DNA of 64,000 nt from Alcanivorax sp. (GTDB lineage Bacteria; Pseudomonadota; Gammaproteobacteria; Pseudomonadales; Alcanivoracaceae): NCBI GenBank assembly GCA_022449455.1, contig JAKUPL010000007.1, positions 123,368 to 187,367 on the forward strand, read 5' to 3'. This document shows, piece after piece, positions 39,865 to 50,979 of the stretch. The notes beneath the pieces were generated by a model. It searched no databases. It had not been told where the DNA came from and saw only the letters and a program-made list of their open reading frames with translations. Each line of letters opens with the position of its first letter. Position 1 is the stretch's first letter. The position numbers and the translations under genes are program-made.

Positions 39865-40004
39865 GCGCGGCTCTCTCCACGAAGGGTGCGACAGGGAGCC
39901 TCAGGGATATAGCACCGACCGGGATGGGTCAATGACCGGATCGGGCCGGACGCACCGGGATTGGCGAAAGATTGCGCGGACGCGCGCCAGGGGCGAATTT
40001 CCTC

Positions 40005-40033
40005 TTGACGATGGGGGCCCCGATTCCTATTCT
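40005..40033 (+). promoter_or_regulatory. tRNA-Glu/tRNA-Gly promoter
   Basis: TTGACG (40005-40010), 17 bp, TATTCT (40028-40033), followed by a GC-rich discriminator (ACGCGCCGC), the usual form of growth-rate and stringently regulated stable-RNA promoters. The rest of the 39865-40054 gap shows nothing notable. Confidence 0.8.
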
Positions 40034-40054
40034 ACGCGCCGCTTGAGAGCACGG

Positions 40055-40130
40055 GTCCCCTTCGTCTAGTGGCCCAGGACACCGCCCTTTCACGGCGGTA
40101 ACAGGGGTTCGACTCCCCTAGGGGACGCCA
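40055..40130 (+). tRNA. tRNA-Glu (anticodon TTC)
   Basis: 76 nt with acceptor GTCCCCT paired to AGGGGAC, anticodon loop CTTTCAC (TTC), T-arm GGGGTTCGACTCCCC and encoded CCA. Confidence 0.97.
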
Positions 40131-40153
40131 CTCAGCCCGTTCACAAGCGCCAA

Positions 40154-40229
40154 GCGGGAATAGCTCAGTTGGTAGAGCACAACCTTGCCAAGGTTGGGGT
40201 CGCGAGTTCGAATCTCGTTTCCCGCTCCA
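40154..40229 (+). tRNA. tRNA-Gly (anticodon GCC)
   Basis: 76 nt with acceptor GCGGGAA paired to TTCCCGC, D-loop AGCTCAGTTGGTAGAGC, anticodon loop TTGCCAA (GCC), T-loop GAGTTCGAATCTC and encoded CCA. It is 23 bp after tRNA-Glu, so they are cotranscribed. Confidence 0.97.
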
Positions 40230-40234
40230 ATTTG

Positions 40235-40266
40235 AAAAAGGGAGTCCATGCGGACTCCCTTTTTTT
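40235..40266 (+). terminator. Rho-independent terminator after tRNA-Gly
   Basis: Stem AAAGGGAGTCC / GGACTCCCTTT with a 4-nt loop followed by a T run. Confidence 0.93.
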
Positions 40267-40629
40267 GTGCTTTTTTCCCTCCGGTTTCATCCTCTGAACC
40301 CCCGCGCGGAAAGTCTGTTGCAAAGGGCAGGCGATTCGTTTAGCGTTGATTATAGTCAGTGTACTGATAAAAAATCGTGGTACGGAATCTGGCGAATAAA
40401 AAGAAAACGCATTCAAAACAATGGTTTAAAAATTATGCAGCAGGATCGACCGCACCGGGTGAGAAGAAAAACAGGTGCTACCCATCCTAATTTGGCGCTC
40501 CAGCGAGCCAGTCCTATCGACGCCATCGAGTCACGGTGGACCAGGGAAACCGATCAACGTATTCCGCCTTTCGGCGACGGGATCCGCGACGGGTCCGGCC
40601 GGCCGGGCGTTGGGTAGGAGACAAGCAGT
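40267..40629 (+). other. AT-rich leader region upstream of the TRAP operon, with an operator-like palindrome
   Basis: 363 bp without a gene. About 40320-40445 is much lower in GC than the flanking DNA, which fits a promoter region. A near-palindrome TCAGT-GT-ACTGA (40356-40367) could be a GntR/FCD-type or similar operator. The last 150 bp return to high GC, ending with GTAGGAG, a ribosome-binding site for the TRAP gene. I cannot pick a clear -35/-10 pair. Confidence 0.5.
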
Positions 40630-41163
40630 ATGGAAAGGTTGGCGGATCTGATTGATCGCCTCAACGACGGTATCGGCGAAGTGCTCAAGTGGGCGATGCC
40701 GGTGATCGCGCTGATCTGCGCGGTGGTGGCGGTGCTTCGCTATGGTTTCGGGGTTGGCTTCCCGTGGTTGTCCGAGAGCTACATTTGGCTCAACGGTGCC
40801 TTGTTCACTCTGGGCGCCGCCTATGTGCTGCGCCACGAGGGCCATGTGCGGGTGGATGTGTTCTACAACCTGCTGTCCGTGCGCGGTCGCGCCTGGATCA
40901 ATCTGCTCGGTACCCTGGTGTTCCTCTACCCGATGCTCTACTTCCTGGCGGTCAAGGGCTGGCCGGGCATTCAGCGTTCCTGGGCCCGTCTGGAAACCTC
41001 GCCCACCATCGGCGGCCTGCCGTTCATGTACCTGCTCAAGAGCTGTCTGCTGGGGTTCTGTCTGCTGCTGGCGTTGCAGGGGCTGAGCCTGATGATCCGT
41101 TCCGTGCAGGCGATTCGCGACCCGGCCGGCGCCGCTTCCGCCGAGGAGAACGACCGTGGCTGA
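40630..41163 (+). CDS. dctQ: TRAP transporter small membrane subunit (DctQ-type)
   Basis: A 177-residue four-helix integral membrane subunit of a tripartite ATP-independent periplasmic transporter. The membrane segments are about 20-38, 48-70, 91-110 and 136-158. The DctQ signature WLSESYIWLNGALFTLGAAYVLRHEGHVRVDV (residues about 45-77) is present; the pattern of conserved Arg/His and acidic residues is that of the QM-type TRAP family. It overlaps the next gene (DctM) by 8 bp and is the first of six same-strand genes. AGGAG lies about 8 bp before ATG 40630. Confidence 0.93.
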   Translation: MERLADLIDRLNDGIGEVLKWAMPVIALICAVVAVLRYGFGVGFPWLSESYIWLNGALFTLGAAYVLRHEGHVRVDVFYNLLSVRGRAWINLLGTLVFLYPMLYFLAVKGWPGIQRSWARLETSPTIGGLPFMYLLKSCLLGFCLLLALQGLSLMIRSVQAIRDPAGAASAEENDRG

Positions 41164-42529
41164 GTGGTTCCTGCTGATTCTTCTCGTGGTTCTGATTCTG
41201 GCTTTGCTGAGCGGTTTTCCGGTGGCCTTCGCCATTGGCGGCGCGTCCATTCTGGTGGGCCTGGTGGCGTCCTGCTTCGGTGCCTTCGACATGCTGATGC
41301 TGGGCGCCTTGCCGGGCCGGGTATTTTCCATCATGACCAACGAAACGCTGCTGGCGGTGCCGTTGTTCGTGTTCATGGGCGCCATTCTGGAACGCTCGCG
41401 CATCGCCGAGAACCTGCTCACCACCATGGGGCAGCTGTTCGGCCGGGTGCCCGGCGGCCTGGGCGTGGCGGTGATCATCGTCGGCGCGTTGCTGGCCGCG
41501 TCCACCGGCGTGGTCGGCGCCACCGTGGTGGCGATGGGGCTGATCAGCCTGCCGGCCATGCGCCGCGCCGGCTATGACGAGCCCCTGGCCAGCGGTTTGA
41601 TCTGCGCCGCCGGCTCCACCGCCCAGATCATTCCGCCGTCCACGGTGCTGATTCTGCTCGGCGTCATGCTGCAGGACGCCAACACCCAGGCGATGCTCAG
41701 CCAGGGTGGTTTCAACAGCCACCAGATCGGCGTCACCGATCTGTTCACCGCCGCCCTGGTGCCGGGCCTGCTGCTGGTGCTGTTCTACCTGCTGACCATG
41801 GCGGCGCGGGCTCTGTTCAACAGCAAGTCCTGCCCGCCGCTGGTGATGAGCGATGAGGAGCGCCGTACCCTGTCCAAGCGGGTCGTGTTCACCATGCTGC
41901 CGCCCCTGGTGCTGATCATTCTGGTGCTGGGCTCGATTCTGTCCGGCATCGCCACCGCCACCGAGTCGGCGGCGCTGGGCGGCGTGGGCGCCTGCATCCT
42001 GGCGGTGCTGGGTCGCCAGATGTCGTTCAAGGTGCTCAAGGACGCCAGCCGCTCGGCCATGTCCATGAGCCTGATGATCTACGCCATCCTGATCGGTGCC
42101 GCCATTCTGTCCCTGGTGTTTCGCGCCCTGGGCGGCGAGGAAGTGATCGCCGAGCTGCTCGATTCGGTGCCCGGCGGTCTCACCGGCGCGATCCTGTTCG
42201 TGCTGCTGATGATGTTCGTGCTCGGTTTCATTCTCGATACCTTCGAAATCATCTTTATCGTCATGCCGATCTTCGCGCCGCCGCTGATCATGATGGGCGC
42301 GGACCCGCTGTGGCTCGGCGTGGCGTCCGCCATCGTGCTGCAAACCAGCTATCTGACACCGCCGTTCGGCTACGCCATTTTCTTCCTCAAAGGCGCGGTG
42401 GCCGATCTGAAACTGGTCACCGTGTACCGCGGGGTCATTCCATTCGTGGTGCTGCAACTGCTCGGCGTGGCGGCGATCTGGGAATGGCCGCAGCTGGTGC
42501 TGTGGCTGCCCGGTGTACTGGCCAACTGA
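41156..42529 (+). CDS. dctM: TRAP transporter large permease subunit (DctM-type)
   Basis: A 457-residue polytopic subunit, with about 12 membrane segments, that forms the Na+-coupled transport path of the TRAP system. Motifs include PVAFAIGGASILVGL, VPLFVFMGAILERSRIAENLL, GGLGVAVIIVGALLAASTGVVGATVVAMGLISLPAM (residues about 104-139), and AAGSTAQIIPPSTVLILLG. Translation starts at GTG 41156 after GAGGAGAA, inside the end of dctQ. It is followed by an 80-bp gap with a good ribosome-binding site before dctP. Confidence 0.95.
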   Translation: MAEWFLLILLVVLILALLSGFPVAFAIGGASILVGLVASCFGAFDMLMLGALPGRVFSIMTNETLLAVPLFVFMGAILERSRIAENLLTTMGQLFGRVPGGLGVAVIIVGALLAASTGVVGATVVAMGLISLPAMRRAGYDEPLASGLICAAGSTAQIIPPSTVLILLGVMLQDANTQAMLSQGGFNSHQIGVTDLFTAALVPGLLLVLFYLLTMAARALFNSKSCPPLVMSDEERRTLSKRVVFTMLPPLVLIILVLGSILSGIATATESAALGGVGACILAVLGRQMSFKVLKDASRSAMSMSLMIYAILIGAAILSLVFRALGGEEVIAELLDSVPGGLTGAILFVLLMMFVLGFILDTFEIIFIVMPIFAPPLIMMGADPLWLGVASAIVLQTSYLTPPFGYAIFFLKGAVADLKLVTVYRGVIPFVVLQLLGVAAIWEWPQLVLWLPGVLAN

Positions 42530-42609
42530 TTACCGGAGGCGCCCGGCGGGGTCCGCGCCGCCGGTGTCGGCATTACCCCTTTCACCGCGGAGATCGAGGA
42601 GTAATTTTC

Positions 42610-43692
42610 ATGAAAAGACGTGACTTTCTACTCAAAGCGGGCGTCGCCGGCACGGTCGGCGCCGCCGCCGCCGGTGTGGGCTTCCCGGCCATCGCCAAGG
42701 GCGCCGTGGAATGGCGCATGCAAAGCACCTGGCGCCGTAACTCACCACTGCTGTCCACCGGCCCGGATCTGGTGGCGGACTATGTGAACAAGGCCTCCGG
42801 CGGCCGCATGAAGCTCAAGGTCTACACCGCCGGTGAAGTGGTCGGCCCGCTGGAAGTGTTCGACGCGGTGGCCGACGGCACCCTGCACATGGGCCACGGT
42901 TACCCGGCGTTTTGGTCCGGCAAGCACCCCGGCTTTCAGTTCCTGGCGCCGCTGCCTTACGGCATGACCTCCCAGGAACAGAATGCCTGGTTCGCCTACG
43001 GCGGCGGCCAGGCCCTGATCGACGAGCTGTACGGCGAGTTCGGCCTCAAGTTCTTCCCCAGCGGCAACACGTCGGTGCAGGGCATCTGGTTGAACAAGGA
43101 CATCAGCGCCGCCGCCGACTTCAAGGGCATGAAGATCCGCACCGGCGCCCTGGCCGGCAGTGTGCTGCAGGAGTTCGGCGCGGTGCCGGTGCAACTGCCC
43201 CTGGGCGAAGTCACCCAGGCGCTGCAGAACGGCACCATCGACGGCGCCGACTACGTGGGCCCGTTCAACGACATGGCGTTCGGCCTGCCGCAGGTGGCGC
43301 GTAACTATTACTGGCCCGGCTGGATGGAGCCCAACGGCGTGCTCGACTGCTTCGTTAACCAGTCCGCCTGGGACAAGCTGGACGCCGACCTCAAGCAGGT
43401 GCTGGTGGGCGCCAACGCCTACGCCAACCAGATGGTGCTCAGTGAATTCGTGGCCAAGAACGCCCAGGCCCTGCAGCAGATCAAGAAGGACTATCCCAAG
43501 GTCAACGTGACCACCTTCAACGCGGAAACCCTCAAGGACCTGAAGAAAGTGTCCAATGACGTGGTCGCCGGCGTTGCCAAGAAGGATGCCCTGGCCGGCA
43601 AGATCTACCAATCCATGACCGATTTCATGACGGTGGTACGGCCCTATTCCGAAATCACCGAAATGGAATACATGAACGCGCGGGCCAACTGA
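42610..43692 (+). CDS. dctP: TRAP transporter substrate-binding protein (DctP family, TakP-like)
   Basis: A 360-residue periplasmic receptor. The N-terminus carries a twin-arginine-like signal (MKRRDFLLKAGVAG) ending near residue 33. The receptor core resembles the TakP subfamily (2-oxoacid and related carboxylates): WRMQSTWRRNSPLLSTGP, LKVYTAGEVVGPLEVFDAV, FFPSGNTSVQGIWLNKDI, MKIRTGALAGSVLQEFGAVPVQLPLGEV, written as residues about 178-205, and GTIDGADYVGPFNDM. The conserved Arg that contacts the substrate carboxylate is present in KIRTG. The ligand is unknown. The next three genes encode a molybdenum hydroxylase, so uptake and oxidation of one substrate is likely. Confidence 0.92.
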   Translation: MKRRDFLLKAGVAGTVGAAAAGVGFPAIAKGAVEWRMQSTWRRNSPLLSTGPDLVADYVNKASGGRMKLKVYTAGEVVGPLEVFDAVADGTLHMGHGYPAFWSGKHPGFQFLAPLPYGMTSQEQNAWFAYGGGQALIDELYGEFGLKFFPSGNTSVQGIWLNKDISAAADFKGMKIRTGALAGSVLQEFGAVPVQLPLGEVTQALQNGTIDGADYVGPFNDMAFGLPQVARNYYWPGWMEPNGVLDCFVNQSAWDKLDADLKQVLVGANAYANQMVLSEFVAKNAQALQQIKKDYPKVNVTTFNAETLKDLKKVSNDVVAGVAKKDALAGKIYQSMTDFMTVVRPYSEITEMEYMNARAN

Positions 43693-43705
43693 TCCGACGC
43701 GCAGG

Positions 43706-43736
43706 AAGGCGGGTGCTCCGGTGGGGCATCCGCCTT
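43706..43736 (+). other. Hairpin between dctP and the coxL-like gene
   Basis: An 11-bp stem (AAGGCGGGTGC / GCATCCGCCTT with one G-U pair), 9-nt loop and only a weak T tract downstream. This is more like an mRNA-stabilising or attenuating hairpin than a full terminator. Confidence 0.55.
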
Positions 43737-43778
43737 CGCCGTTTGTTCTTTGAAGATTGAAAGGGTGCGAGGTAAAGG

Positions 43779-46127
43779 ATGAATAAGACCGGTATTGGTG
43801 CCCGTGTACGTCGGTTGGAAGACGACCGTCTTGTTCATGGCCGCAGCCGTTACGTGGGCGACATCAAGATGCCGGGGATGTGCGACGTGGCGTTTTTGCG
43901 CAGTCCCCTGGCCCATGCCCGGATCAAGGCGGTCAATAAACCGGACGGTCTGGAAAGCCGGATTCTGTGCGCCGCCGACCTGGACGGCGTGCGGCCGATC
44001 GTCGCCGAGTCCACGCTGCCCAGCTATCGAACCTCGGAACACTGGCCGCTGGCCCGCGACAAGGTGCGCTTCGTCGGTGAACCGGTGGCCATGGCCATTG
44101 GCCGCAACCGCGCCGAGGCCGAGGATCTGCTGGAGGAGATCGACCTGCAGCTGGAGGCGCTGCCGCCGGTGATCAACGGCGCGGTATCGATGGCCGAGGA
44201 CGCGCCGCGCCTGCACGAGGAATGGGACGACAACATGTTCCTCAAGCTGGCGGTGGGCCAGGACCCGGCGGGCGCCCGGGAAAACGCGGAGGTGGTGGTG
44301 ACCCGCCAGTTCCGTACCGCGCGCCAGGTGATGAACCCGATGGAAGGCAAGGGCGTGGTGGCCTGGTGGGATTACCGCGACGGCCAGCTGGTGGTGACCA
44401 CCTCCACCCAGGTGCCCCATGTGATCCGTAACGGCCTGTCCCGTTGCCTGGGCATCGACGAATCGCTGATCCGCGTGATCGCCCCGGAAGTGGGCGGCGG
44501 CTTCGGCTACAAGTGCATTCTGCAGCCCGAGGAGATCGCCGTGGCCTGGCTGGCCTGGACCCGGCGCAAACCGTTCCGCTGGCTGGAGGATCGCCGCGAA
44601 CATCTGACCGCCGGCGCCAACACCCGCGAGCACCAGTATTCGGTGACCGCCTATGCGGACCGGCGCGGCCGGCTGCTGGGCATGGACGCGGAAGTCACCG
44701 TGGACGTGGGCGCCTACTCGGTGTGGCCGTTCACCGCCGGGCTGGAAGCGGCCCAGGCCGGCGGCAACCTGCCCGGCCCCTACGATTTCCGCGAGTACCG
44801 CTGCCAGGTGAACGCGCCGGCCACCAACAAACCGCCGTTCACCCCTTACCGGGGCGTGGCCCGGCCCGGCGTGTGCTTCGCCATGGAGCTGACCATCGAC
44901 GCCATCGCCCGGGAAGTCGGTCGCGAGCCCTGGGAAGTGCGCGCCGAGAACCTGGTGCCGGCGGACGCCATGCCCTATGTGAACGTCACCAACAAGCATT
45001 ACGACACCGGCGATTACCCCGGCTCGCTGATGCGCGCCAAGGACGCGATCGGCTTCGACCAGGTACGGGAGCGGCAGAAGACCCCGGAAGCGGACGGCCG
45101 GCTGATCGGCGTCGGCTTCGCCACCTACACCGAGCAGTCCGCCCACGGCAGCAAGGTCTTCGCCCAGTGGGGCCTGGCGCTGGTGCCCGGCTACGACGAG
45201 GCGCGCATCAAACTGACCCCGGACGGCGGCGTGGAAGTGCGGGTGGGCATCCAGAGCATTGGCCAGGGCCTGCAGACCACCCTGGCCCAGGTGGCGTCCG
45301 AGATCCTGTCCATCCCGGTGGACCGCATTCGCGTGCTGATGGGCGACACCGGCACCACGCCGTATTCCTACGGCGCCTTCGCCTCGCGGGGCATCGTCAT
45401 GGCCGGCGGCGCCGTGTCGCGGGCCGCGGAAGCCCTGGCGGAACGCATCCGCGTGATGGCGGCCCGGGCGCTCGACTGCACACCCGAGCAGGTGCGCCTG
45501 GAGGACGATCGGGTGCACGGCCCCAACGGCAGCCTGAGCTTCGCCGAGGTGGGCCACATCTGGTACCTGCGCCCGGACGAACTGCCCGAGGGCGACCGTC
45601 ACGGCGGCCTGGAAGTCACCGAAGCCTATCGACCGAAAACCGACCACGGCGTGTTTTCCTACGCCTCCCACGCGGTGGTGGTGGCGGTGGACCCGCAGAC
45701 CGGCAAGGTGGAACTGCTCGATTACGTGATCGTGGAAGACGCCGGCAAGGTGGTGAACCCGATGATCGTGGAAGGCCAGACCATCGGCGGCGCGGTGCAG
45801 GGCATCGGCACCGCGCTGTTCGAGGAAGTGACCTACGACGACCAGGGCCAGCCGCTCAGCTCCACCCTGGCGGACTACCACCTGCCCGGCGCGGCGGAAG
45901 CGCCGCACATTCGCATCCAGCACACCGAGAGCCCGTCACCGCACACCGCCCATGGCATCAAGGGCGTGGGCGAGGGCGGCGCCATCGCCCCCGGCGGCGC
46001 CATCGTCAACGCCATCAACGATGCGCTGGCCGGCCACGGCGTGGAAATCAATCAGATCCCCGCCACGCCGGAACGCATTCTGGGCGCGCTGTTAAAAGCC
46101 GGTGCCGGCAAGGAGAACGCATCATGA
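43779..46127 (+). CDS. Molybdopterin-binding large subunit of an XDH/CoxL-family hydroxylase (form II type)
   Basis: A 782-residue molybdenum cofactor subunit that carries out hydroxylation or oxidation of an organic substrate. The N-terminal domain starts TGIGARVRRLEDDRLVHG. Molybdopterin-binding segments include PEVGGGFGYKCILQPEE, the active-site loop PYRGVARP (residues 356-363), IGQGLQTTLAQVASE and PYSYGAFASRG. The catalytic glutamate Glu732 is in GIKGVGEGGAIAPGG. Form I CO dehydrogenase has AYXCSFR at the loop; here it is PYRGVAR without cysteine, so CO oxidation is unlikely. The substrate is unknown. Coupled by 4 bp to the FAD subunit gene and preceded by the TRAP genes. Confidence 0.92.
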   Translation: MNKTGIGARVRRLEDDRLVHGRSRYVGDIKMPGMCDVAFLRSPLAHARIKAVNKPDGLESRILCAADLDGVRPIVAESTLPSYRTSEHWPLARDKVRFVGEPVAMAIGRNRAEAEDLLEEIDLQLEALPPVINGAVSMAEDAPRLHEEWDDNMFLKLAVGQDPAGARENAEVVVTRQFRTARQVMNPMEGKGVVAWWDYRDGQLVVTTSTQVPHVIRNGLSRCLGIDESLIRVIAPEVGGGFGYKCILQPEEIAVAWLAWTRRKPFRWLEDRREHLTAGANTREHQYSVTAYADRRGRLLGMDAEVTVDVGAYSVWPFTAGLEAAQAGGNLPGPYDFREYRCQVNAPATNKPPFTPYRGVARPGVCFAMELTIDAIAREVGREPWEVRAENLVPADAMPYVNVTNKHYDTGDYPGSLMRAKDAIGFDQVRERQKTPEADGRLIGVGFATYTEQSAHGSKVFAQWGLALVPGYDEARIKLTPDGGVEVRVGIQSIGQGLQTTLAQVASEILSIPVDRIRVLMGDTGTTPYSYGAFASRGIVMAGGAVSRAAEALAERIRVMAARALDCTPEQVRLEDDRVHGPNGSLSFAEVGHIWYLRPDELPEGDRHGGLEVTEAYRPKTDHGVFSYASHAVVVAVDPQTGKVELLDYVIVEDAGKVVNPMIVEGQTIGGAVQGIGTALFEEVTYDDQGQPLSSTLADYHLPGAAEAPHIRIQHTESPSPHTAHGIKGVGEGGAIAPGGAIVNAINDALAGHGVEINQIPATPERILGALLKAGAGKENAS

Positions 46128-46954
46128 AACCCGTGAAGTTTGATTACCTGCCGGCCCGGGACGGCGCCGAGGCGGTGCGCCTGCTTACCGAGCACGGCGA
46201 CGAGGCCAAGTGCATCGCCGGCGGCCAGTCCCTGGGGCCGATGCTCAACCTGCGTCTGGCGCGGCCGGCGGTGCTGGTGGACCTGCACCGCGCCGAGGAC
46301 CTGACCGGCGTGGAGGAAAGCCGCGACGCCATCGTCTACGGCGGCGCCGTGCGCCATGCGGATTTCGAGGACGGCCGGGTGCCCGACGCCGCCCGTGGCA
46401 TGTTGCCGTTGGTGGCTTCGCGCATTGCCTACCGGGCGGTGCGCAACCGGGGCACGTTGGGCGGCAGCCTGTCGCACGCCGATCCGGCCGCCGACTGGGT
46501 GTGCGTGATGACCGGTCTGGGCGCCACCTACCTGCTGCGCGGCAAGAAGGGCGTGCGTGAAGTGGCGGCGGAAAACTTTATCCAGGCGGCCTTCATGACC
46601 GAACTGGCCCCCAACGAGATTCTGGCTGGCGTGCGCGTACCGAAACTCAGCGACAGCGCTCGCTGGGGCTACTACAAGTTCTGCAAGAAAGTGGGCGAAT
46701 TCTCCCAGGCCACCGGCGTGGTGGTGGTGGACCCGGAACGGGGCTACTGCCGGGTGCTGGTGGGCGCCCTGGACAGCCCGCCGGTGCCGTTGGAACCGGT
46801 GGCCGAGGCACTCGCCGCCGACGGCCCGGACGGCGCCGTGGCGGTGCTGGACGCGGCGGTGGACACCGCCCTGGGCGATTACCCACAGGTCAACCGTCAG
46901 CTGTACAAGGTCGCGGTGCGACGCGCGCTGGCACAGATTGGAGCGACTCGATGA
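46124..46954 (+). CDS. FAD-binding medium subunit (CoxM-type) of the same hydroxylase
   Basis: A 276-residue FAD subunit that passes electrons from the [2Fe-2S] clusters to an acceptor. It has the VAO-type FAD motifs AGGQSLGPMLNLRLARP near residue 33 and RNRGTLGGSLSHADPAAD near residue 108, and the C-terminal CO dehydrogenase flavoprotein domain (about 175-275). The ATG at 46124 overlaps the large-subunit stop and its own stop overlaps the next gene, so all three are translationally coupled and should be made in fixed ratio. Confidence 0.93.
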   Translation: MKPVKFDYLPARDGAEAVRLLTEHGDEAKCIAGGQSLGPMLNLRLARPAVLVDLHRAEDLTGVEESRDAIVYGGAVRHADFEDGRVPDAARGMLPLVASRIAYRAVRNRGTLGGSLSHADPAADWVCVMTGLGATYLLRGKKGVREVAAENFIQAAFMTELAPNEILAGVRVPKLSDSARWGYYKFCKKVGEFSQATGVVVVDPERGYCRVLVGALDSPPVPLEPVAEALAADGPDGAVAVLDAAVDTALGDYPQVNRQLYKVAVRRALAQIGATR

Positions 46955-48114
46955 CCACCAAATTGTCCCTGTCCGAAGTGACCCTGAACGTCAACGGCGA
47001 GGCCGTCAGCGGGCACGTGGAAGCGCGCACCAGCCTGGCGGATTTCCTGCGCGATGACCTGGATCTCACCGGCACCCACCTGGGCTGCGAACACGGCGTG
47101 TGCGGCGCCTGCACGGTGGAAATGGACGGCCAGCCGGTGCGTGCCTGCATCACCCTGGCGCGGGCCTGCGAAGGGCGCAGCGTGCGCACCATCGAAGGCG
47201 GCGACGACGACCCGCTGATGGGCGCGCTGCAAGACGCCTTCATGCAGTTCCACGGCCTGCAGTGCGGTTTCTGTACACCGGGCATGCTGGTCGCCTGCCG
47301 CGACATCATCCTGCGTCACCGCGCGCTGACCGACGAACAGATCCGCATCGCCCTGGGCGGCAACATCTGCCGCTGCACCGGCTACCTGGGCATCGTCAAC
47401 GCGGTGCGCTCGGTGTTCGAGCGGCGGGATGAACTGCTGGCCGGTGACCAGACCCTGGTCACGCCGCCGACCCAGCCGGACTGGGGCGGCGCCAAGCTGG
47501 TGACGTTCAAACGCACCGCCGGCCATATGGAAGCGGTGGAAGCGACGCCGTCCGACGGCGCCGGCGGTGATGACCAGACCCTGCGCGAAACCATCACCGT
47601 GGACAAGCCGGTGGACGAGGTGTGGGCCTTCCTCAGCGACGTGGAACGGGTGGTGCCCTGTGTGCCCGGCGCCCGCCTGCTGTCGGTGAACGGCAACGAG
47701 CTGGAAGTGGAGATGGAAATTTCCCTGGGCGCGATCCGCGCGCGCTTTCGCGGCACCGGCCGTTACCACTTCGACGACGACAACCGCAAAGGTCGCATGG
47801 AAGGCGAGGGCCGGGACGCGCGCAGCGGCTCCAGCGCCAGCGGCGGCCTGGACTTCGCGGTGATCGGCGATGAGTCCGGCAAGCGCTGTCGCATCGAGTT
47901 CGTGGCGTCCTACAGCGTCACCGGGCCGCTTTCCCAGTTCAGCCGGGGCGGCCTGGTGAAAAGCTTTGTCGGCGCCATGGCCCGCATGTTCGCCGACAAC
48001 GTGCAGCGCGTGCTGTCCGGCGGCCAGGTCTCCGACAAGGGCAGCCGGCTCAGCGTGGTGCAACTGACGCTCAATGTGGTCAAGTCCTGGTTCCGGGCCC
48101 TGTTCGGCAAGTAG
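46951..48114 (+). CDS. [2Fe-2S] small subunit fused to a CoxG/SRPBCC domain
   Basis: A 387-residue fusion. Residues 1-160 form a CoxS-type [2Fe-2S] subunit with ligands Cys46, Cys51, Cys54 and Cys66 (plant-type cluster) and Cys105, Cys108, Cys140 and Cys142 (C-terminal cluster, CGFCTPGM and CRCTGY). A linker follows (about 165-205), then a CoxG-like SRPBCC domain (about 205-355; VDKPVDEVWAFLSDVERVVPCVPG, RCRIEFVASYSVTGPL). The C-terminus has a hydrophobic, amphipathic tail. In CO dehydrogenase clusters CoxG is usually a separate membrane-tethering protein, so this fusion would attach the iron-sulfur subunit to the membrane. The exact role is inferred, not shown. Confidence 0.9.
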   Translation: MTTKLSLSEVTLNVNGEAVSGHVEARTSLADFLRDDLDLTGTHLGCEHGVCGACTVEMDGQPVRACITLARACEGRSVRTIEGGDDDPLMGALQDAFMQFHGLQCGFCTPGMLVACRDIILRHRALTDEQIRIALGGNICRCTGYLGIVNAVRSVFERRDELLAGDQTLVTPPTQPDWGGAKLVTFKRTAGHMEAVEATPSDGAGGDDQTLRETITVDKPVDEVWAFLSDVERVVPCVPGARLLSVNGNELEVEMEISLGAIRARFRGTGRYHFDDDNRKGRMEGEGRDARSGSSASGGLDFAVIGDESGKRCRIEFVASYSVTGPLSQFSRGGLVKSFVGAMARMFADNVQRVLSGGQVSDKGSRLSVVQLTLNVVKSWFRALFGK

Positions 48115-48132
48115 CGCCCCCCGGCCCGGGAC

Positions 48133-50979
48133 TCAGAACCGCCAGTCGAAGCGGGCGCCGAGGCCGTGTTCGCGGCGCTCGCCGGACAGCTCGCCCTGGT
48201 AGCTCAGGCCGACCCGGGCGGTGCCGCTGAGCGCCACCGACAGGCCCGCTTCCAGCAGGGCGCTGTCCTCGGTCACTGGCAGGCCGCTGACGGTGAACGC
48301 TTGCCCGCCGGCGAAGCGCTGGCGGACGCGCGGCTCGGTATCGCCGAACGCATGGCGCCAGCCCAGGCCACCCTGGGCACGGGCCGGCAGACCCGCCAGC
48401 CGGGTGTCGATGGCCAGGCGCAGCCCCAGGGTGGAGAAGCTGGTGTCGGCGTCGTCGCCGCCGCCGCTCAGCGCGGCGGCGGCGCCGGTTTCTTCGTGAT
48501 CCTCGTCGCGCAGTCGCACCCGGGCCAGCCCCACGAACGGCTCCATGGTGAGCGCCCCCAGGCGCACCGCGTAACCGGCCTCGCCGAACAGTTGCAGGGT
48601 GCGCGCGTCGTACTCCCCGCGCAGTGCGTCGTTGAAGCCGTCGAAGGCGACCCGTCGGGTGGTTTCGAGCCGGTGCCAGCTGTGCCCGAGACCGGCGCTG
48701 AAGCGCCAGGCGCCCTGGCGGCCACCGGCGAACACGCCCAGATGATAGGCGTCGTCGCGGGCGTCGGCGGCCTGGTCGTTCTCATCCAGGGTCAGACGGC
48801 CACGGCCGGCCAGCGCGCCGGCGCGCCAGTCCGGGCCCACCGGCAGGTCGGCGCCGATAAACAGCCCGCGGCTGTCCCGGTCGGCGCCGCTTGCGCCGTG
48901 GGCGCCCTCGATCTCGCCCCAGGCCCCGTAGGCGTGCGTCCAGACCACCGCGCCGCTGCGCCCGTCGCGGCCCAGCACGGTGCCGCCGCTGGCGGACAGC
49001 GCCCCGTCCGCGTTCCGCAGGCGCTGGTTCACCGCGTCGCGCAAAAAGCGGCTGTCGTCGATCAGGGCGGCGCGGGTCGAGGCGTGCAGGGCGCCGGCCA
49101 GCTGGTCGAAGGCGGCGGGCACGTCACCGCCGTCGGCGGCCTGCATCAGCACGGCATCGTACACCGGGTCGCCGGCGCCCCGTTGCTCAACGGCATTGGC
49201 GGTGGCCGCCTGGTTGGCGCTGCGCGCCAGGTCGGTGAAGAGAACGTCGTTGCGCACCAGCCGCAGGATGACGCTGTTGCTGTCGTAATCCAGCAGCGGT
49301 TGCAGGAACGCCAGGTTGGTGCTGACCTGATCAAAGCGGCCGGTGATACCCTGGTCCGCGTCGATCAGCGTATAGCGGGTAAACGGCTGATAATCGCCGC
49401 CGGCGTCGATGTGCGCCACGCTGCCCCCGTTCAGGGTGGCGGTGCCGGTGACCCGGACCCGGTCCGCGTCGCCGTCGCCGGCGCCCTCCACCTGAAACAC
49501 CGAGCCGGATTCGAACAGCAGATCGCCGTCCACGGTCAGGGTGCCGATGGAATTGCCCGGTGCCAGGGTGGCGCCGTTGGTCAGCCGCGCGCCGCCCAGG
49601 GTGCCGGTGCCGCCGAGCAGGGCGCCGTGGTTCACGGTCACCGTGGAACCGGCCAGCCTGCCGTTGACGATCAGGGCGCCGTTCGCCACCCGGGTGGCGC
49701 CGGTGAAGCCGTTATCGCCGTTCAGGGTCAGGGTGCCGGCGCCGTCCTTGGTGAGGCCGCCGTCGCCGTCCAGGCCGGTGTGCACGGTCAGGTCGTGGCC
49801 GTTGCTGTCGATGATGGCGCCACCGGCCTGGATCACCACGTCGCCGTCGTTGAAGTTCAGGAACAGTTGGTCCTGGTCACTGGCGGCGAGCAAGCGGCCG
49901 CCGTTGAAATAGAACGCGGCGCTGCCCGCGCCCCGGTCCACCCAGAGGATTTCCAGGGTGCCCCCCTGGTCCAGCGTCAGCGAGCCATTGCCGGAAGCGT
50001 TCGACCCGAGCACCACGCCGTTGGCGCGCACCGTGCCGCCGTCGGCGATGGTCACCTGGCCGGTGCCGTTATTGCCCACCAGAATGGCGGCGTTGCTGAC
50101 CCAGAGGGCGTCATCGCCGCGCACCCGGACGGTGCCCGACGCGCCGGCCTCGGCGCCCAGGAAGGCGAACTCATTGGTTAGCCTGCCGCCGGCGTTGACG
50201 GTGATCTCGCCACTGCCGTTGCTGCCCACCACCAGGTTGGAGCCCATTTCCCAGCGTGCGCCGGCGCCGTCCAGGGTGACCCGCCCCTGGCCGCCGGCGC
50301 CGCTGCCGACAAAGCCGACGTTGCTGATCACGGTGCCGCCGGCGGTCACGGTCAGCTCGCCGTCGCCAAGGTTGCCCACCACCAGATCGCCGTTATTCTC
50401 CCAACGGCCGCCCCGCACCTGAACGTGGCCCTGGCTGCCCTGGAAGGCGCCCACGTAGCCGATGCCGTTGGTGACCGTGGTGCCGGCGTTGAGGGTCAGG
50501 GTGCCGACGCCGTACTGGCCCACCGACAGGGTGTCGCCGGCCTCCAGGCGGCTGCCCGCGCCGCTGAGCGCCAGCTGGCCTTGGCCCCGGTCGCTGCCAA
50601 TGTAGGTTTGCAGGGCGGTGACCCGGCCGCCGTCCTCGATGTTCAGGACGCCCTCGCTGAGGTCGCCGACGAACAGCACGCCGTGGTTGGTCCACAAGGC
50701 ATCGGCACCGGTGACGGTGGCGGTACCGGGGGCGGCGTTAAGAGAGTCGCTGCCGATGTAGCCGGTGTCATTGTCCACGGTGCCGCCGGCGCCCACGATC
50801 AGCTCGCCGCCGATTTCCAGAAAAGCTCCGGCCTGCCAGGGGCTGGGTTGGGTGCCGCCGGCGGCGGCCACGGTTTCCTGGTTCCCCACATCGATACGGG
50901 CCGCCCACCCTGGCGTAGCCAGCGGCGCCAGCAGCCCGGCCCCCACCAGCAGGCGCGTGGTCACGGAAGTGATTGTCAT
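48133..50979 (-). CDS. Type Va autotransporter with a repeat-rich passenger
   Basis: A 948-residue secreted adhesin-like protein. A signal peptide (residues 1-26, ending GWA) is followed by a beta-helical passenger. At residues 60-345 it holds about five degenerate repeats of near 49 residues, each beginning LxVGxxGxG and containing LTVxAGGTVxN and GYVGS/GxG. PATR-type autotransporter repeats follow at about 395-520 (GGLTKDGAGTLTLNGDNGFTGAT-like pattern). The C-terminal 12-strand translocator (about 680-948) includes VWTHAYGAWGE and ends with FDWRF, an outer-membrane barrel signal. Ribosome-binding AGGAG precedes ATG 50979. It converges on the hydroxylase operon with an 18-bp gap. Ligand or function is unknown. 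Confidence 0.92.
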   Translation of the reverse strand: MTITSVTTRLLVGAGLLAPLATPGWAARIDVGNQETVAAAGGTQPSPWQAGAFLEIGGELIVGAGGTVDNDTGYIGSDSLNAAPGTATVTGADALWTNHGVLFVGDLSEGVLNIEDGGRVTALQTYIGSDRGQGQLALSGAGSRLEAGDTLSVGQYGVGTLTLNAGTTVTNGIGYVGAFQGSQGHVQVRGGRWENNGDLVVGNLGDGELTVTAGGTVISNVGFVGSGAGGQGRVTLDGAGARWEMGSNLVVGSNGSGEITVNAGGRLTNEFAFLGAEAGASGTVRVRGDDALWVSNAAILVGNNGTGQVTIADGGTVRANGVVLGSNASGNGSLTLDQGGTLEILWVDRGAGSAAFYFNGGRLLAASDQDQLFLNFNDGDVVIQAGGAIIDSNGHDLTVHTGLDGDGGLTKDGAGTLTLNGDNGFTGATRVANGALIVNGRLAGSTVTVNHGALLGGTGTLGGARLTNGATLAPGNSIGTLTVDGDLLFESGSVFQVEGAGDGDADRVRVTGTATLNGGSVAHIDAGGDYQPFTRYTLIDADQGITGRFDQVSTNLAFLQPLLDYDSNSVILRLVRNDVLFTDLARSANQAATANAVEQRGAGDPVYDAVLMQAADGGDVPAAFDQLAGALHASTRAALIDDSRFLRDAVNQRLRNADGALSASGGTVLGRDGRSGAVVWTHAYGAWGEIEGAHGASGADRDSRGLFIGADLPVGPDWRAGALAGRGRLTLDENDQAADARDDAYHLGVFAGGRQGAWRFSAGLGHSWHRLETTRRVAFDGFNDALRGEYDARTLQLFGEAGYAVRLGALTMEPFVGLARVRLRDEDHEETGAAAALSGGGDDADTSFSTLGLRLAIDTRLAGLPARAQGGLGWRHAFGDTEPRVRQRFAGGQAFTVSGLPVTEDSALLEAGLSVALSGTARVGLSYQGELSGERREHGLGARFDWRF

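Follow-up and report, generated by a model that had tools for sequence, protein, structure and literature searches.

Picolinate, a chelating pyridine acid produced by humans, animals and microbes, is degraded along a route in which PicA forms 6-hydroxypicolinate, PicB converts it to 3,6-dihydroxypicolinate, PicC yields 2,5-dihydroxypyridine, and PicD, PicE, PicF and PicG lead on to fumarate (PMC10142695, available part). Here we compare with this route a block of six genes located at positions 40630-48114 of a 64,000-nucleotide stretch of an Alcanivorax sp. genome (GCA_022449455.1, contig JAKUPL010000007.1, positions 123,368 to 187,367), hereafter the window, in which the genes of a tripartite ATP-independent periplasmic (TRAP) transporter adjoin those of a molybdenum hydroxylase. 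The reading we favour, to which we give a probability of about 0.74, is that the block imports picolinate through its TakP-like TRAP system, that its PicA-type enzyme hydroxylates the acid at position 6, and that a CoxG domain fused to this enzyme likely passes the electrons to quinone; the substrate, the regulation and the electron route are what we infer.

An earlier note on this DNA had described six same-strand genes with overlaps between dctQ and dctM, coxL and coxM, and coxM and coxS, and both the open reading frames and the Pfam assignments agree with it. Its proposals that one substrate is imported and then directly oxidized, and that this substrate could be a heterocyclic carboxylate, are likewise supported as the likely reading. 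Its statement that no system of this make-up was known has to be divided. The class of the system is recognizable, because the enzyme belongs to a pic clade, the rest of a pic-like pathway is present in the genome and an operator-like palindrome is shared; in our view the block represents the picA-type portion of a pic regulon divided over several loci, and includes a TRAP importer of its own. In the literature searched we found neither the pairing of TRAP and PicA nor a further TRAP with an orotate-type receptor under apparently common control, and no matching description of a TRAP transporter joined with picolinate or dihydroxypyridine; the one paper that came up shows, in its available part, that a different family of transporters binds quinolinate, picolinic acid serving as the control.

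Phylogenetic placement of the molybdenum hydroxylase

The coxL-type gene (43779-46127, + strand; PF01315, PF02738 and PF20256) was placed in a tree of 34 CoxL rows, from which locus L049 was excluded because it belongs to the same genome as L010, and in which L007 to L010, identified by matching coordinates with genomes G769, G766, G193 and G767, were counted once. In this tree the window, four congeners and a genome from another family of the order (G945, locus L048) form a fully supported group, and support is 98/93 on adding Paracoccus L023 and 97/99 on adding L037 and L078. These rows sit in a 15-row clade (89/53) that includes 10 rows from outside Alloalcanivorax, every one of which adjoins pyridine-type genes. 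Eight of the ten have a gene for a PicC-like decarboxylase as well as one for a Rieske alpha subunit, while L037 adjoins a Rieske alpha and beta pair only and L078 adjoins PicD/E/F/G-like genes, PicC not being in its stretch. In the Burkholderia and Caballeronia stretches every member of the set PicB alpha, PicB beta and PicC to PicG has a homologue, and the three Variovorax stretches have the same set minus PicG. Conversely, neither PicC nor this Rieske gene was found in the stretches compared for the 18 in-group rows outside the clade, most of which adjoin liv transporters, metallohydrolases, HpxZ or DUF1116 genes. Pacificitalea L077, whose CoxL falls outside the clade, was retained as a non-pic row, although a PicC-like gene (54%) is present on the same plasmid at a distance of about 37 kb. 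Phylogenetic placement of the large subunit, which the earlier note had proposed as a check, puts the window's CoxL among hydroxylases encoded beside picolinate genes and points to a PicA-type enzyme.

This distribution of neighbours also bears on the proposal that the substrate is some other pyridine or N-heterocyclic acid, for example quinolinate, which would be hydroxylated and then enter the same lower pathway. Relatives in the wider family do adjoin very different gene sets (liv transporters with a metallohydrolase; HpxZ, DUF1116 and an amidase), and L078 has its PicD/E/F/G-like genes without PicC. However, within the family the block is found in exactly those genomes that have the PicC-like decarboxylase and the Rieske oxygenase, two enzymes whose substrates in the published route are acids derived from picolinate, and no extra decarboxylase was seen beside them in L065 or L048 (gene lists scanned by eye), so that another heterocycle appears improbable. 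A ureide-type substrate had been suggested by the first plasmid neighbourhoods and was dropped, since the tree puts those loci outside the window's clade.

Form I CoxL of aerobic carbon monoxide (CO) dehydrogenase carries a cysteine in its active-site loop AYXCSFR. The loop of the window's CoxL, PYRGVARP, lacks this cysteine, as had been pointed out before, and the two matching NCBIfam models of CO dehydrogenase large subunits stay far under their cut-offs (437.9 against 991.15 bits and 543.6 against 950 bits). CO oxidation was rejected on these two results, and 'form II' serves here as a family label that says nothing about CO. The notion that the enzyme is an isolated form II relative of CO dehydrogenase, and that the TRAP genes adjoin it by chance and without functional connection, could appeal to the fact that homologues are often auto-named 'carbon-monoxide dehydrogenase'; against the loop, the scores, the conservation of the block and the shared palindrome, it is extremely improbable.

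Genes of a pic-like pathway

PicB is reportedly a four-component Rieske oxygenase. A joined-query search, in which G945 was the positive control and assignments were made by homology alone, located PicE-, PicG-, PicF- and PicC-like genes together with a Rieske gene (76% identical to that of G945) at C56:76905-86171 of the window's genome, and a PicD-like gene (82% identity) at C3:41185-42237. PicB-, PicC-, PicD-, PicE-, PicF- and PicG-like genes are all present in this genome. The order on C56, namely MarR, picE, picG, picF, picC, dctP2, picB alpha and picB beta, is the same in the five genomes that carry the block, with one contig break in G766. Among 46 genomes of the family, close homologues of PicB alpha, PicC and PicD occur in exactly the five block-bearing genomes, and a sixth genome, G765, has nothing beyond a 43% PicD-like match. 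The PicC protein of the window's genome is 68% identical to those of Alcaligenes faecalis NCIB 8687 and Bordetella bronchialis, a value above the >60% identity used to call pic clusters (PMC10142695, available part), the latter threshold referring to PicC of strain RB50. The sole XdhC_C match in the genome is on contig C23, in line with the earlier claim that no maturation gene is found among the six.

In G945 the same six-gene block (62-74% identity) is followed on the same strand by a 955-residue fusion of Rieske ferredoxin, reductase and alpha subunit and by a beta subunit. After these lie MarR- and XdhC-like genes, and a divergent set comprises PicE-, PicG-, PicF- and PicC-like genes as well as one for an MFS-like carrier; on the strand of the block, a PicD-like gene is located about 2.3 kb beyond dctQ. 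The XdhC-, MFS- and PicD-like names and the part of the fusion that precedes the alpha subunit were read by eye, the MarR name was given by similarity, and the remaining pic names by Pfam and similarity. Separately, further PicE-, PicD- and PicF-like copies were seen in the window's genome (G000) at C53:4715-5518 and C25:42141-44655, one of them beside an apparent FAD monooxygenase, and these perhaps belong to a nicotinate pathway.

A shared operator-like palindrome

An operator-like palindrome, TCAGTGTACTGA, lies upstream of dctQ (40356-40367, + strand) and is a putative site for a PicR-type MarR repressor. PicR of strain JQ135 reportedly follows the rule TCAG-N4-CTNN and is released by 6-hydroxypicolinate. 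The stretch with TCAGTGTACTGA is identical in all five Alloalcanivorax loci, and the flanking sequence drifts. Although TCAGTGTACTGA is the sole exact TCAGN4CTGA in the 64-kb window, 0.77 would be expected and at least one occurs in 52 of 100 shuffles; its mere presence therefore means little, and its weight comes from position and conservation. A matrix built from 14 pic-cluster promoter sites of Burkholderia, Caballeronia and Variovorax, all of them chosen because they match TCAGN4CTGA exactly and lie close to pic genes, gave the site 30.9 bits, against 16.4 for the runner-up in the window and 17.1 for the best score over 100 single-base shuffles of it. The best matches in the C56 locus fall before dctP2 (25.1 bits), picB (22.8) and picE (18.2), that of the C3 locus (22.4 bits) falls 46 nt before the longest open reading frame of the PicD-like gene, and in G945 sites upstream of the Rieske gene and picE reach 19.6 and 18.6 bits.

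Additionally, the strict pattern TCAGYRTRCTGAYWA was searched in the whole genomes of 13 congeners, where it occurs exactly twice in each of the five carriers (ten sites in total) and never in the eight non-carriers, whereas the reversed-TCAGYRTRCTGAYWA control had no match in any of the 13. In each carrier one copy precedes dctQ and the second falls in the interval from picC to dctP2; in G766 this second copy is at the end of a contig. Because the pattern was chosen post hoc, the informative part of this result is its absence elsewhere and in the non-carriers. A MarR-like gene adjoins picE in the five carriers, the copy of the window's genome being 71% identical to that of G945, and a PicR-type MarR repressor is predicted to act, probably, at the shared palindromes. 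The dctQ leader also contains a conserved 25-nt element (40473-40497, + strand) that matches at 25/25 positions in the Alloalcanivorax loci L007, L009 and L010 and at no more than 16/25 in the other pic loci scanned, namely L065, L066, L067, L048 and L051.

TRAP receptors of the block and of the C56 locus

The solute receptor encoded by dctP (42610-43692, + strand; PF03480) is the predicted picolinate receptor, and its best PDB relatives are 5cm6, 4pet, 7ug8 (a ketoacid-binding protein) and 2hzk (TakP), which bears out its earlier description as TakP-like. In TakP a cation, whose ligands are Gln156, Glu214, Glu240 and the Trp215 carbonyl, holds pyruvate, and Arg177 and Tyr100 hold the carboxylate (PMC1839085, available part). 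By alignment to TakP, three of these six ligand or cation residues are identical in the window's DctP (Gln156, Arg177 and Glu240), while Glu214 is replaced conservatively by Asp, the main-chain ligand Trp215 by Tyr and Tyr100 by Phe, and Met157 is deleted; DctP of G945 agrees with it at these sites except for Tyr at 100 and Phe at 215. Picolinate, or another aromatic acid able to chelate, would suit a receptor that retains the cation site but has a changed, aromatic rim, and a 2-oxoacid is a possible ligand as well. No picolinate TRAP receptor was found in the literature searched.

A second TRAP system lies between the picC- and picB-like genes at C56:80399-83252 (L065:10399-13252), and its receptor, DctP2, is present in all five carriers and 51% identical to PDB 4nn3, which was solved with orotic acid (PMC11668362, available part). 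The pic-like cluster of Paracoccus also has a TRAP receptor, 50% identical to 4nn3. Since 6-hydroxypicolinate is a close shape analogue of orotate, the DctP2 system may import 6-hydroxypicolinate. These observations admit an arrangement in which the enzyme is PicA-type but the TRAP transporter of the block imports a 2-oxoacid, for example pyruvate, and picolinate enters by the second TRAP system or by another carrier. The keto-acid and TakP-type relatives of DctP are in its favour, together with the position of the second TRAP genes behind the same palindrome and the recurrence of the second receptor type in Paracoccus. On the other hand, six genomes from two families have TRAP genes linked to those of a PicA-type enzyme, and the TakP ligand and cation residues are partly altered in all six, Glu214 and Trp215 throughout, which makes this arrangement unlikely. 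Within the favoured reading of picolinate import, a two-TRAP regulon can be proposed tentatively, at somewhat less than even odds: the window's TRAP system would take up the picolinate chelate for a CoxG-wired PicA, DctP2 would retrieve leaked 6-hydroxypicolinate for PicB, and one MarR repressor sensing 6-hydroxypicolinate, reportedly the ligand in JQ135, would control both.

The CoxS-CoxG fusion and a proposed exit of electrons

The last gene of the block (46951-48114, + strand) encodes two [2Fe-2S] modules (Fer2 and Fer2_2), a linker, a CoxG domain at residues about 207-355 and a short C-terminal helix. Pfam COXG is matched at residues 215-355 with 64.7 bits against a cut-off of 22.2, in agreement with the domain make-up read earlier from the sequence. 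In an AlphaFold2 model of the protein (mean predicted local distance difference test score, pLDDT, 81.5; predicted template modelling score, pTM, 0.52), the CoxS half resembles known small subunits, and the CoxG half matches PDB 8uds with a template modelling (TM) score of 0.90 by target and 1.9 Å over 149 columns. The hydrophobic tail claimed before corresponds to a C-terminal helix (residues 369-385) modelled with low confidence (pLDDT below 60); with a hydrophobic moment of 0.71 at residues 374-384, a value that ranks third when every 11-residue segment of the protein is considered, and a net charge of +3 over residues 368-387, it reads as amphipathic rather than as a membrane span.

The search for the fusion and its neighbours that the earlier note had recommended found the fusion to be real but not special to this locus, as 7973 of 8000 candidates matched and, among the matches listed, 120 of 120 carry PF06240. 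The fusion itself was thus rejected as a novelty, being widespread and present beside unrelated gene sets too. Metagenomic homologues P0005-P0008 are 59-64% identical. As a side observation, homologues P0016, P0020, P0021, P0022 and P0033 (613-654 aa) have the CoxS-CoxG fusion within a longer protein.

Regarding the function of CoxG, a survey citing the original work describes it, in the part available, as quinone-binding, and this description and the match of the domain to the CoxG structure of Mycobacterium smegmatis argue for electron transfer. The fused domain could instead only anchor the enzyme to the membrane and carry no quinone, which would be compatible with picolinate as the substrate. 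Such anchoring is reported for CoxG-like proteins of Sulfolobus, and for Oligotropha CoxG membrane recruitment or anchoring has been proposed, its mutant growing slowly yet having active enzyme (both sources in their available parts); we take this to be the weaker account, though one of some substance. The fusion makes whichever role CoxG has permanent.

Organization of the block

Upstream of the genes discussed above, dctQ (40630-41163, + strand; PF04290, E 2.2e-18) encodes the small and dctM (41156-42529, + strand; PF06808, E 6.9e-75; TIGR00786 above cut-off) the large TRAP membrane subunit, whereas the coxM-type gene (46124-46954, + strand; PF00941, FAD_binding_5, E 2.4e-38) encodes the FAD subunit. 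Overlaps measure 8 nt between dctQ and dctM and 4 nt both between coxL and coxM and between coxM and coxS, and dctP is separated from dctM by 80 nt and from coxL by 86 nt. The second of these gaps contains a terminator-like hairpin of 15 pairs (43705-43737, + strand) with a weak T tract, and it is structured in all six distinct block genomes compared, although in A. gelatiniphagus (L009) an altered sequence and a shorter stem make the structure weaker. The hairpin may cause partial termination of the transcript or shield the dctP mRNA. The claim that TRAP and hydroxylase genes are co-operonic is plausible but no more than that, because this hairpin splits the two sets.

The left border of the block is formed by tRNA-Glu (40055-40130, + strand) and tRNA-Gly (40154-40229, + strand), which alone reached Rfam gathering scores in a scan of 40000-48300. 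A sigma-70 scan of the same interval gave a single match (40005-40033) ahead of the tRNAs and none adjoining dctQ. Directly behind the block lies an autotransporter gene (48133-50979, - strand), which also occurs in L007 and L010 and was not found there in L008 and L009.

Proposed pathway and its weight

In the proposed pathway, periplasmic DctP would bind picolinate as a cation chelate, in which the ring nitrogen and the carboxylate stand where a 2-oxoacid would present its keto oxygen and its carboxylate, and DctQM would move the acid inward with an ion gradient. The molybdenum centre of CoxL would then place a water-derived hydroxyl on C6 to give 6-hydroxypicolinate, and both [2Fe-2S] clusters would relay the electrons to the FAD of CoxM, both steps as expected from the enzyme family. 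The tethered CoxG domain could bring the enzyme into contact with the membrane for an exchange of quinone, by which the electrons would enter the respiratory chain. The picB-G-like genes present on C56 and C3 would convert 6-hydroxypicolinate to fumarate, and the PicR-like MarR repressor encoded on C56 would silence these loci through the shared palindrome.

Several points weigh against this reading. The five carriers belong to one genus, and the co-occurrence of block and pathway genes consequently counts as one or few events rather than five, while support for the whole pic clade is modest. The naming of the pic genes goes back to homologues other than the characterised PicA, PicB and PicR of JQ135. 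In G945 the palindrome before dctQ is weak (15.2 bits) and the two top matrix scores (23.9 and 20.8) fall elsewhere, and TCAGYRTRCTGAYWA was written after its sites had been seen. Besides, a terminator-like hairpin stands between the TRAP and hydroxylase genes, DctP2 is found in every carrier and the window's DctP need not be the sole or main picolinate importer, and a study of the archaeal (Sulfolobus) glycerol-3-phosphate dehydrogenase argues, in its available part, for anchoring by CoxG-like proteins and no electron transfer.

Distribution and genomic site

The genome of the window is that of an Alloalcanivorax, and among named loci those of A. marinus, A. profundimaris and A. gelatiniphagus are closest to it. 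All four other Alloalcanivorax loci compared have the block between identical neighbours, which goes beyond a chance assembly. The fused subunit occurs in 5 of 46 family genomes, all of one genus, and strong matches to it were obtained in 12/398 phylum, 2/369 class and 5/390 order genomes, these sets being even samples of larger groups. G945 was the only further full block seen among these matches, and a TakP-like dctP beside the hydroxylase was found in none of the 11 other phylum and class stretches and in none of the 16 plasmid stretches.

At the corresponding tRNA-Glu/tRNA-Gly spot of eight block-free congeners, the gap to the PGAM gene is short in two (L087 and L089), L088 has an autotransporter, L090 is a contig end and the stretch of L094 is without the PGAM gene; the site looks like an exchange point, perhaps a hotspot. 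About 7 kb of other genes were seen at this spot in L091-L093.

Related hydroxylases in other surroundings were recorded along with these comparisons. A cluster with a CoxG-fused hydroxylase recurs in nine loci (L025, L028, L038-L042, L044 and L045), with an amidohydrolase/deacetylase and a liv-type transporter in all nine, a MarR gene in eight and a small Rieske protein in seven. In L026, L027 and L031 the hydroxylases have separate CoxS and CoxG genes and stand beside HpxZ, DUF1116 and amidase genes, which suggests a ureide-like substrate for those loci.

Comparison with known systems

Altogether, the analysis proposes a likely substrate and pathway for a molybdenum hydroxylase among whose relatives the label carbon monoxide dehydrogenase is frequent, and a likely substrate for a TRAP receptor that would pass for a 2-oxoacid binder if judged by its sequence only. 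Specialists may be surprised by the link to a TRAP transporter, by the additional TRAP of orotate type and by the presence of CoxG on a pyridine hydroxylase. Moreover, the fused CoxG cannot detach, which would offer a simple test of CoxG as a quinone exit beyond CO dehydrogenase.

When single components are compared, the best solved sequence relative of the large subunit is quinoline 2-oxidoreductase (PDB 1t3q, E 2.6e-138), the 168-residue small-subunit chain of which matches only the iron-sulfur part of the fusion, and its substrate differs. TakP of Rhodobacter sphaeroides (PMC1839085, available part) is of the same family as the window's DctP and shares Gln156, Arg177 and Glu240 with it, whereas Asp214, Tyr215, Phe100 and the lack of Met157 set DctP apart. 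The orotate-bound 4nn3 (PMC11668362, available part) is a relative of DctP2 and not of this DctP. CoxG of the M. smegmatis CO dehydrogenase (8uds) has the same fold as the C-terminal domain described here, which, by contrast, is fused to the iron-sulfur subunit and shares 23% identity with it over that stretch. HpdA, the 3-hydroxypyridine dehydrogenase of Ensifer adhaerens HP1 (cited in PMC11962113), also hydroxylates a pyridine and is accompanied by a CoxG homologue, with membrane anchoring as the proposed role; it belongs to a four-component cluster by its title, whereas CoxG is fused here, and the two are likened by description only, from the part of the source available.

As a whole, the system comes closest to the pic cluster of A. 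faecalis JQ135 and B. bronchiseptica RB50, which has, in the available part of its description (PMC10142695), the same content, including a three-subunit molybdenum dehydrogenase, PicB-G-like proteins and a MarR regulator gene. In contrast to that cluster, the genes of the window's genome are spread over at least three places, Rieske ferredoxin, reductase and alpha subunit form a single protein of 953-955 aa, and picA is joined to a TRAP transporter.

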